Assembly (NCBI GenBank): GCA_003697085.1
Contig: RFFU01000123.1
Span: 1-6,468, forward strand
Reading direction: 5' to 3'
DNA length: 6,468 nucleotides
Origin: Candidatus Hydrogenedentota bacterium
Lineage (GTDB): Bacteria; UBA8481; J006
Under the pieces are notes generated by a model. The model worked only from the letters and a program-made list of their open reading frames with translations. It was not told the origin of the DNA and did not search any database. The position numbers were made by a program, and so were the translations under genes. Position 1 is the stretch's first letter, and each line of letters starts with the position of its first letter. This document shows, piece after piece, positions 4,259 to 6,468 of the stretch.

Positions 4259-5512
4259 TCACGACGATTCCGGGCCGCTGTTCGAGTCGGAAATCACCTT
4301 GATGACAAAACCGTCCTTCAACTTCGGCTCGAACCAGGTCGATTTCGGAGGCATAATCCGGCCGGCGTCGGCGATCTCCATCAAATCGGCGACCTGGACG
4401 GGAAAGAGCGAGAAGGCCACTCCGCCGCCTTCCCTCACCCGCCGCTCCAGCTCCCCCGTTCCGCGAATCCCCCCGACAAAATCGATCCGATCCGAACGCC
4501 TCGGATCCTCGATCCCCAACACCGGAGCCAGCAGATTTTCCTGCAAGATACTGGTGTCCAGCCGCCCCACGGGATCCCGCTCGTCATACGTGCTCTTCCG
4601 CGGAACCAGCGTCCACCACCGGTTTCGAAAATACATCGCGATTCTGTGGACCTCCCCCGGCGTCGGATTCCGATCGTCGAGCACGATGAAGTTCTTCGAC
4701 ACTTCCGTGAGAAATTCCTCCTCGCTCAATCCGTTGAAATCCTTCACGATCCGGTTGTACGGAAGAATCTTGAGTTCGTCGTCCGGGAAAAGGACCGCGA
4801 GGAAAAAGTTGAACGGCTCCTCCCCCGTCACGTGTTCCCGTTTGTTCCGCGCACGAATACAGGACCGCGTGTAGGAGGCCGCGCGATGGTGTCCGTCCGC
4901 AATGTATAACTCCGGTACCGCCGAAAACTCCTCGACCCATTCCCCCGGACGCTCGATGACCCAGAGCCTGTTCCGAACCCCGTCGTATGTCGTGACATCG
5001 AAGACCGGCGGCGTTTCCTTGACCCTCCTCGCCAAATCCTTGATCGAGTCGCGATGGCGATAAACGAGGAAAACGGGACCGGTGTGGGCCCCGAGATACT
5101 CCGTGTGCTTCGTCCTATCCTCCTCCTTGTCCGCGCGCGTCAACTCATGCTTTTTGATCCGCCCCGCCTCGTACTCCATCGCTGAAGCCCCCGCCACGAC
5201 CCCCGTCTGCGCCCGCCCGTTTACCTCCAATTCATAAAGGTATAACGACGGAACCGGGTCCTGCTCCAACCACCCCTTCTCCAACATTGCCTGAAAATTC
5301 TCCCGCGCCTTTTCGTATACCGATTCGTCATAGAGAGATGTTCCCTCGGGAAGATCTATCTCGGAACGCGAGACATGAAGGAAACTGTACGGATTCCCCT
5401 CCGCCAACCTCGCCGCCTCCTTCGTGTCGACGATGTCATAAGGCGGAGCCACCATCTGCTCGACCAAATCTTGCCGGGGACGGTACCCCTTGAACGGAGA
5501 AATCTTAGCCAT
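4259..5512 (-). CDS. DUF1015 family protein
   Basis: The 417-residue protein is a full-length DUF1015 member, the usual size being about 400-430. Recognisable blocks are the start ISPFKGYRP (4-12), MVAPPYDIV (20-28), GRIKKHELT (117-125), the motif YIADGHHRAAS (203-213), the NRIVKDFNG segment (253-261) and the closing MPPKSTWFEPKLKDGFVI (387-404). No signal peptide or membrane helix is seen, so it is probably cytoplasmic. No activity is firmly established for this family that I can cite. The DGHHR motif recalls the ParB/Srx-like fold of the archaeal free serine kinase SerK, and DUF1015 genes often lie beside serine biosynthesis genes (serA, serC) in other bacteria. Serine or small-molecule phosphorylation is therefore a reasonable guess, but no serine gene is present here. 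The ATG at 5512 has no clear Shine-Dalgarno and lies 11 bp after a good -10 box. It is the first gene of the minus-strand series. Confidence 0.93.
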   Translation of the reverse strand: MAKISPFKGYRPRQDLVEQMVAPPYDIVDTKEAARLAEGNPYSFLHVSRSEIDLPEGTSLYDESVYEKARENFQAMLEKGWLEQDPVPSLYLYELEVNGRAQTGVVAGASAMEYEAGRIKKHELTRADKEEDRTKHTEYLGAHTGPVFLVYRHRDSIKDLARRVKETPPVFDVTTYDGVRNRLWVIERPGEWVEEFSAVPELYIADGHHRAASYTRSCIRARNKREHVTGEEPFNFFLAVLFPDDELKILPYNRIVKDFNGLSEEEFLTEVSKNFIVLDDRNPTPGEVHRIAMYFRNRWWTLVPRKSTYDERDPVGRLDTSILQENLLAPVLGIEDPRRSDRIDFVGGIRGTGELERRVREGGGVAFSLFPVQVADLMEIADAGRIMPPKSTWFEPKLKDGFVIKVISDSNSGPESS

Positions 5513-5523
5513 ACTCGCGGCGT

Positions 5524-5551
5524 ACTATATCGCGCTCATTAAAAATGACAA
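5524..5551 (-). promoter_or_regulatory. Promoter of the DUF1015 gene
   Basis: On the minus strand TTGTCA (5551-5546) and TATAGT (5529-5524) each match five of six consensus bases, with a 16-bp AT-rich spacer. The -10 box ends 11 bp before the ATG at 5512, so the message should have a leader of only about 4-6 nt. The -35 box directly abuts the palindrome ATACC-T-GGTAT (5551-5561), a possible operator, which itself overlaps the heptamer repeat. Confidence 0.55.
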
Positions 5552-5556
5552 TACCT

Positions 5557-5577
5557 GGTATCAGGCATCAGGCACAG
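5557..5577. repeat. Short heptamer repeat beside the DUF1015 promoter
   Basis: The plus strand reads GGTATCA GGCATCA GGCACAG, three 7-bp units differing by one to three bases, with TCAGGCA perfect twice (5561-5567 and 5568-5574). The period is the same as in the array at 5772-5869, on the other side of the palindrome cluster. Confidence 0.6.
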
Positions 5578-5614
5578 CAAACGCGCCGGCTCTTCTCCCC
5601 CGCCCCGTCCCTGC

Positions 5615-5755
5615 CCTCGGCCCGGCGGCAACGCCGAGGCCTCCCTCCTCCGTTATTCCGAAGCGGGCACAGCCCGACGCGAAATCCCCCTCGAGTGCCC
5701 GATTCGCCCCGCAGGTTGAGAACCCGCACTCCATCCCTGCAGGCAAGATGCCTGC
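5615..5755. repeat. Cluster of small palindromes (intergenic repeat element)
   Basis: Four hairpin-forming units follow one another. Unit 5739-5755 is a perfect 7-3-7 palindrome (GCAGGCA AGA TGCCTGC). Unit 5711-5727 has the same 7-3-7 design (GCAGGTT GAG AACCCGC) with one wobble. Unit 5664-5676 is a shorter 5-3-5 (CGGGC ACA GCCCG). Unit 5615-5639 has 7-bp arms CCTCGGC and GCCGAGG around 11 nt. The repeated 17-bp design, flanked by heptamer repeats, points to a modular non-coding repeat of the kind dispersed in many bacterial genomes. Whether copies exist elsewhere in this genome cannot be seen here. Confidence 0.6.
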
Positions 5756-5771
5756 GCTCCCAGGATGCGCT

Positions 5772-5869
5772 TCCCCTTCCCTTTTCCCTATCCCCTTTCC
5801 CCTTTCCCCTTTCCCCTTTCCCCTCTTCCCTTTTTCCTTTTCCCTTTTGCCTTTTGACTTTTGACTTTT
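5772..5869. repeat. 98-bp array of 14 in-phase degenerate heptamers
   Basis: Read on the minus strand from 5869 down, the sequence divides without a slip into 7-bp units: AAAAGTC twice, AAAAGGC, AAAAGGG, AAAAGGA, AAAAGGG, AAGAGGG, GAAAGGG four times, GATAGGG, AAAAGGG and AAGGGGA. The variants change gradually along the array. Bases 5791-5848 form an unbroken 58-bp polypyrimidine tract on the plus strand. Heptamer short tandem repeats of this general kind are known from cyanobacterial intergenic DNA (STRR sequences); that is a comparison of type, not proof of relation. Confidence 0.9.
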
Positions 5870-6080
5870 GCTTTTTTTCCTTCTCCCGCCTATCATCCCG
5901 TTGGCTGTTTTCCTACAGCATACTGTTCGTTAACAGACACTTTCTCGGTTCTCCTTCCTCCTGTTCCTCCCCACCGATCTCCCCCCTCTCTTCGCAAACT
6001 TCAGTCGTCTCACGCTTCTTTCCCCACTTTCCCCTCGGGGTCCTTCCGTGGCATACTCCTTGCTCCGCTAGGAACGATCG

Positions 6081-6468
6081 ATGAATTCGAAACTGCAATC
6101 AAAATTCTCCGAGCCGTCCGTTCTTTCCGAACTGCTGGCTCATCTTCTGCTCGGAGGCTTCGTCATTTTGGCGCTCATCATTTTCTTTCTTCCGGTCGTA
6201 ACGCGCGCGGCTGAAACTCCTTCACACTCAAAGACGATCGAGTACACCGTCCGGCCGGGTGACACGCTCTACGGCATCGCACTCCGCGAATTGGGAAAGG
6301 GTTCCCGTTGGAAAGAGATAGCCCGGCTCAACAAGATCCCACCTCCCTATGAAATCGCCGTCGGAGAGAAACTTCTTCTGCCGATTTCGATTCCGTCCTC
6401 CCCTCCCCCCCCCCCCCCCCCCCCCTCCTCCACCCCTTCCCCCCCCCCCACCCCCCACCCCCCCCTCC
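6081..6468 (+). CDS. LysM-domain membrane-anchored protein, 3' end missing
   Basis: An open frame starts at the ATG at 6081 and runs off the right edge, giving 129 visible codons. The product has a cytoplasmic N-terminus of about 21 residues, one hydrophobic helix (about 22-40, LLLGGFVILALIIFFLPVV) and then TRAAE, which could be a signal peptidase site or simply the end of a membrane anchor. A LysM domain follows at about 53-101, with YTVRPGDTLYGIA (55-67), WKEIARLN (77-84) and IAVGEKLLLP (92-101). LysM binds the glycan of peptidoglycan, so the protein probably contacts the cell wall from the periplasmic side. After residue 105 it becomes a polyproline run encoded by poly-C. AGGA lies 7 bp before the ATG and supports the start. 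It is divergent from the DUF1015 gene. What follows the linker, whether an enzyme domain or nothing, is not visible. Confidence 0.85.
   Translation, partial: MNSKLQSKFSEPSVLSELLAHLLLGGFVILALIIFFLPVVTRAAETPSHSKTIEYTVRPGDTLYGIALRELGKGSRWKEIARLNKIPPPYEIAVGEKLLLPISIPSSPPPPPPPPSSTPSPPPTPHPPL
6400..6468. repeat. Poly-C low-complexity end of the window
   Basis: A run of 21 C (6405-6425) is followed by C-rich sequence broken only by single T, TT and A bases to the last base. In the LysM frame it reads as proline with a few Leu, Thr and Ser. Runs of this length are prone to sequencing and assembly error, so both its length and the reading frame after about 6405 are doubtful. Confidence 0.85.

Follow-up and report, generated by a model that had tools for sequence, protein, structure and literature searches.

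What are the small palindromes and heptamer repeats that lie together between two divergent genes in a Candidatus Hydrogenedentota genome? The window, that is, the whole stretch of 6,468 nucleotides that we analyzed, is contig C19 of a 3.2-Mb assembly that is 94.6% complete. An initial annotation had read the cluster as one modular element of a dispersed, REP-like family, with four small palindromes bracketed by heptamers. Its features are listed in Table 1. Read along the minus strand, the heptamer array (5876-5777) comes first, followed by the junction, hairpin C, hairpin B, a spacer and module A in degraded form (5690-5652). In the REP core unit, the foot CYGG-GAGC stands 5' of a 7-3-7 DNA hairpin, and hairpin B is placed head-to-tail behind hairpin C, their tags approximately 28 bases apart. 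All four palindromes are indeed present (5739-5755, 5711-5727, 5615-5639 and 5664-5676), but of the two described as exact 7-3-7 structures only GCAGGCA-AGA-TGCCTGC is perfect, GCAGGTT-GAG-AACCCGC having one mismatch. The palindrome at 5613..5641 was not shown to belong to a dispersed unit. The window copy of module A, GTTATTCCGAAGCGGGCACAGCCCGACGCGAAATCCCCC in plus-strand reading, deviates from the exact pattern of its family.

Table 1. Features of the intergenic mosaic and its neighbors (window coordinates)
Feature	Position	Strand	Description
DUF1015 gene	4259-5512	minus	left neighbor, divergent from LysM gene
Intergenic region with mosaic	5513..6080	.	568-bp gap, DUF1015 gene to LysM-domain gene
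GGTATCAGGCATCAGGCA, two heptamer copies	5557..5574	plus	judged outside the element
Imperfect palindrome GCCCTCGGC...GCCGAGGCC	5613..5641	.	CCTCGGC...GCCGAGG at 5615-5639, arm 7, loop 11
Module A, degraded copy	5652..5690	plus	consensus GTCATTCCGAGGCGGGCGCAGCCCGACGAGGAATCCCC; reminiscent of CGTC-type REPs
Small palindrome CGGGC-ACA-GCCCG	5664-5676		inside degraded module A copy
REP hairpin B	5732-5709	minus	GGAGT tag + GCGGGTT-CTC-AACCTGC + GG; one stem mismatch
Stem-loop of hairpin C	5755-5739	minus	GCAGGCA-TCT-TGCCTGC, perfect 7-3-7 palindrome
REP hairpin C	5763-5739	minus	foot CTGGGAGC = CTGG + GAGC (5763-5756), then 7-3-7 stem-loop
Junction array/hairpin C, GGGAAGCGCATC	5764..5776	minus	similar in loci L011, L013, L016, L019
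Heptamer array CTTTTCC/CTTTTGC	5777..5876	plus	purine-rich on the element's strand; 13 bp from C tag
LysM-domain gene	6081 on	plus	right neighbor

Within the window alone, palindrome density is marginal (two hairpins with arms of at least 7 bases, P = 0.064 against shuffled sequence), as it might be if chance palindromes and low-complexity sequence had met in one intergenic region. The feature was judged real because of its copy number, not of palindrome density in the window. A 351-bp query gave 58 BLAST matches across the genome, and a covariance model of hairpin C gave at least 139 matches at E<=0.01, a floor value as 150 candidates were scored, with the window copy ranking fourth. The palindrome of hairpin B has 46 perfect copies in the genome and module A 86 exact-pattern copies, against 0 for each control. 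In a 398-kb sample of the genome, fuzzy models of C, B, E and A detected 25, 15, 6 and 24 copies, respectively, which were clustered, and the same models found no copies in the reversed sequence. The multiple copies and the zero matches of reversed controls refute the chance reading, which keeps practically no probability. They agree with the dispersed, modular palindrome family proposed initially, and the element is clearly not single copy. A simple palindrome pattern allowing two mismatches was too noisy (233 matches versus 133-137 in the control), and tag-plus-hairpin patterns and the covariance model were used in its place. A search of the genome and its relatives, as had been suggested, thus found the element in many copies in the genome but none in G001, the only same-order genome compared, in which the hairpin C model had 0 matches. 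G001 is distant, its DUF1015 match being only 20% identical. The model also had 0 matches in two unrelated genomes.

The modules recur in the order C-B-A, and a C-B spacing of 28-29 bases was seen repeatedly in the 398-kb sample; they are also found singly and in other combinations. With genes predicted by hexamer score occupying 86% of the sample, 61 of the 70 modules fall outside them (C, 20/25; B, 14/15; E, 6/6; A, 21/24). Longest-ORF calling placed most modules inside ORFs, an artifact of spurious ORFs. Eight of the 22 module-bearing gaps are divergent and 3 are convergent, with no bias to gene ends. Transcription terminators or mRNA-stabilizing hairpins that arose repeatedly and do not move would also be G+C-rich hairpins between genes. 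This explanation is nevertheless very unlikely, given the lack of preference for gene ends, the position of the locus itself between divergent genes, the conserved foot outside the stem, the long conserved tandem composites and, as described below, a near-identical sequence over phyla with RAYT (REP-associated tyrosine transposase) flanks. Other dispersed repeats, namely, GTAGGGGCGACCGGCCGGTCGCCCCTAC palindromes and CCGTGTCCTCCGTGGTTT-type strings, occur near mosaics of the same genome, at L006 and other loci. An Rfam search of the feature gave no match.

The stem itself appears to be under constraint. When elements of this genome were chosen by the tag alone, stem pairing was 0.473, compared with a mean of 0.358 and a maximum of 0.403 for permuted arms; the same selection in other phyla gave 0.604, compared with 0.452. 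The third stem pair is variable (AT, GC or CG). In the cross-phylum pattern scan, two free arm positions were complementary in 90 of 100 sites (GC 42, CG 35, AT 13), and the covariation score in the model alignment was higher than in all 500 shuffles. The copies thus share a conserved arm design with compensatory changes, as the dispersed family proposed initially was expected to. Compensatory changes in the stem, combined with a conserved 5' foot that is unpaired, are characteristic of REP elements.

The hairpin extends far beyond this genome. Pattern GGGAGCGCNGGCATCNTGCCNGC, which joins tag and hairpin in 20 fixed bases and for which less than one chance match is expected in 257 Gb, gave at least 117 matching genome stretches, whose species titles cover about a dozen phyla, and the reversed control of the 20-base form had no matches. 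Titles among the matches listed include Acidobacteria, Verrucomicrobia, Planctomycetota, Bacteroidales, Alpha-, Beta- and Gammaproteobacteria, Syntrophobacteraceae, Chloroflexi, Armatimonadota, Latescibacterota, Hydrogenedentes, Obscuribacterales, Actinomycetota, Nitrospinota and Binatia; many of the records are metagenome bins, and individual titles may be wrong. A slightly wider pattern matched in 10 of the 386 genomes of a broad set, and its control in none of them. The foot is CTGG or CCGG in 44 of 64 hairpins flanking RAYT genes and in 89 of 131 hairpins of other phyla, and GTGG in 3 of those 131. GTAG is absent among the 15 commonest feet listed. The feet thus depart from GT[AG]G, and for this reason we do not file the family in the GTAG superfamily.

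Genes for Y1 transposases (Y1_Tnp) are present in 23 of 24 carrier genomes. Perfect tagged hairpins lie in inverted orientation on both sides of 13 of 27 RAYT-type loci, and on at least one side of 15, compared with 0 of 19 IS200-like Y1 loci in the same genome set. The same hairpin therefore flanks RAYT genes in inverted copies, as REP elements do. Such loci come from Acidobacteriota, Armatimonadota, Hydrogenedentes, Verrucomicrobiota, Gammaproteobacteria and Obscuribacterales. At L255 (Pyrinomonadaceae), which contains an exact match, a 46-base identical inverted repeat starting with GCTGGGAGCGCAGGCATCCTGCCTGCAATGAGCGCG flanks the RAYT gene, and further cases are L252, L257, L250, L261, L211, L246 and L213. 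Roughly half of the tested RAYT-type loci bear hairpins other than the CYGG-GAGC one, a different inverted hairpin being found at most of the remaining loci (scores mostly 14-52 versus a null maximum of 13). Two tested RAYTs exceed the cut-off of 80 of the curated NF047646 REP_Tyr_transpos model, with 88.3 and 97.3. The carrier RAYTs are 45-50% identical between phyla, and a RAYT tree gave no resolution of which RAYTs use the tag. They have approximately 200 residues and NHVH and YIxNNP motifs, in keeping with TnpA-REP subclass 2.4, which is described by NH[IFV]H and YIxNNP motifs and about 194 residues (Table 1 of PMC6006769).

A second RAYT-type gene in the genome of L255, at L256 (G066), has GTAG-footed hairpins (GTAGGACAGGCATTCCTGCCTGTCC), and thus two foot codes stand side by side in one genome. 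Some RAYT genes and their flanking hairpins lie inside long open frames that remain unbroken (L211, 1..3162; L258, 96..4223; L259, 1..2292; L264, 1338..4157; L269-L271; and L276). By eye, the host frames are leuS-, carB-, dnaE- and metH-like, apparently housekeeping genes, as if whole REPtrons had been inserted in frame.

We placed the hairpins with REP elements on the basis of copy number, hairpin structure and RAYT flanking. Most probably, the stretch is a BIME/NIME-like mosaic of non-autonomous repeats between genes, with REP elements of the RAYT class at its core. The hairpins are probably mobile, to judge by sequence comparisons, and mobilization by a RAYT is supported because RAYT genes elsewhere are flanked by this hairpin.

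The search for a RAYT elsewhere in this genome, which had been recommended, found no cognate RAYT in the 94.6%-complete assembly (about 5% may be missing). The single Y1_Tnp gene of the genome, L047 on contig C64, encodes 330 residues with a long C-terminus and scores 46.6 bits against a RAYT-family cut-off of 80. Against the RAYT alignment, the best match in the genome is 38.7 bits, for this gene, compared with 238-284 bits for the RAYTs of four other carriers. L047 groups with a long-C-terminus protein (support 100/100), and no hairpins are found beside it; Y1 genes of the long-C-terminus type are described as having no REPs beside them (PMC6006769). Among the top-scoring copies, which were those compared, the hairpins of this genome are more varied than those of RAYT carriers (8 distinct among 20, versus 3-4 in the carriers, whose sampled copies are almost identical). 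Copies here are arranged in head-to-tail C-B tandems, and those of the RAYT carrier G257 in inverted pairs (REPINs). These differences suggest that the spread of the hairpins in this genome may have stopped. As the assembly lacks a cognate RAYT, the copies here most likely remain from an earlier spread, with the RAYT lost, or were mobilized in trans. In G257 (L290-L309) the tags of each pair point outward (CTGGGAGCGCGGGC...GCCCGCGCTCCCA), a typical REPIN layout.

Heptamers had been described on both sides of the palindromes. The right array is real, with period 7, 11.3 copies and 87% matches over 5777-5855, and continues to 5876, but the left GGCATCA bracket does not stand. It amounts to 2.1 copies at 5560-5574 (score 30), and no other locus examined contains the string TATCAGGYATCAGG; being unique to the window, the left heptamer is not a flank of the dispersed element. 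The proposed link between a 7-bp arm and a 7-bp period is not supported and looks like a coincidence, as the palindromes are common without arrays. In the 398-kb sample, all three arrays lie 15-18 bp 5' of a C or E tag and are oriented as in the window, where the distance is 13 bp; 4.9% of random positions are near a module. Several single BLAST alignments cover array and hairpin with order and orientation kept. Seven unrelated genomes, mostly hairpin-free, have CTTTTSC arrays as well. Thus, the CTTTTGC array is an independent cross-phylum heptamer repeat, joined to REPs here. CTTTTGC arrays are repeated in G048, G356, G226 and G212, mostly without a REP hairpin, and almost no control matches were obtained. 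Cyanobacterial STRR sequences are heptanucleotide repeat arrays. Such arrays are also known from Geobacter metallireducens (PMC2700814); the present ones are likewise dispersed with a period of 7 but differ in their unit (CTTTTCC/CTTTTGC) and their fixed position beside a REP tag.

The shared order, orientation and spacing of array and hairpin C in single BLAST matches, the distance of 13-18 bp from array to tag and the repeated C-B-A order could mean that array, C, B and A move as one non-autonomous element. The transposase would then not be a RAYT but, for example, the C64 Y1 protein or some enzyme that the assembly lacks. We consider this improbable, as modules are also solitary or differently combined, and as the C64 Y1 gene lacks adjacent hairpins and groups with the type reported without REP neighbors (PMC6006769). 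For the preferred reading as REP elements of the RAYT class, the array was most likely grown by replication slippage and carried along, or it would be a preferred landing context.

By that reading, the hairpin strand, when single-stranded on the lagging strand, would be bound by a RAYT of the subclass-2.4 or group-4 type and recognized through foot and loop. The foot would guide which dinucleotide is cleaved, and the piece, once excised or copied, would be rejoined at another site. By analogy with the Marinomonas RAYT, in which a GTAG-to-GTGG change shifted cleavage to CC (PMC8266576), the CYGG foot may direct cutting at CC. No host function would be necessary to explain the locus.

The family resembles the GTAG-tagged REPs mobilized by RAYTs (Nunvar 2010, PMC2817692; Di Nocera 2013, PMC3733652; Corneloup 2021, PMC8266576) in having a tag 5' of a short hairpin, a high copy number, an intergenic location, inverted copies beside a RAYT gene and, in some carriers, REPIN pairs. 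The Pseudomonas putida REP TGTGGGAGCGGGC.. is similar to CTGGGAGCG.. of the present family. In contrast to those REPs, the foot here is CYGG rather than GT[AG]G, a 4-base GAGC linker precedes the stem, the sequence hardly varies across about a dozen phyla, and no cognate RAYT was found in this genome. The carrier RAYTs share motifs, size, a scatter over phyla and REP insertions into reading frames with TnpA-REP subclass 2.4 (RAYT group 4; PMC6006769), but the published REPs of that subclass are GT[AG]G-footed, and the assignment here is by motifs only. Class-3 genes have been reported with the non-canonical foot CnGA (PMC6006769), so non-GTAG feet have a precedent. Module A (TGTCATTCC...GGAATCC), compared by eye with CGTC-tagged REPs (PMC3733652), appears to fit their TGTC variant and AT-first stem but differs in a longer variable inner part (GAGG..CGAC) and a CCCC tail; the form TGTCATTCC...GGAATCCCC is found in the 86 module A copies, and by the same comparison its tail is unlike the CCA of the CGTC superfamily (PMC3733652). 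The mosaic as a whole is like the Neisseria dRS3/NIMEs (PMC3733652) in clustering with other repeats and in having no known transposase.

No description of a CYGG/GGGAGCG-tagged REP family was found in the text of the published papers searched. We tentatively propose, with somewhat less than even confidence, a third, CYGG-GAGC-tagged REP superfamily with its own RAYT lineage, spread horizontally and almost unchanged through about a dozen phyla, with a foot coding for a different cleavage choice (predicted CC), and with REPs kept after loss of the enzyme in genomes such as this one. Guide-tag rules of RAYTs have been established for GT[AG]G feet only. The guide model predicts that the cleavage site shifts with the foot, and a widespread CYGG-foot family with identified RAYT partners lends itself to testing this in nature. 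The at least 139 copies without an enzyme in one genome would exemplify REPs that outlast their RAYT.

A 23-base hairpin near-identical over phyla could also help explain the recurrent spurious short ORFs encoding AGILPA-type peptides in environmental genomes. The initial remark on AGILPA holds as a translation: the minus-strand ORF 5561-5896 reads ...SAGILPAG... and matched no Pfam family. At the contig end, a long C-rich run (window 6396-6468) lies within the proline-coding part of the LysM gene and is a likely assembly break point.
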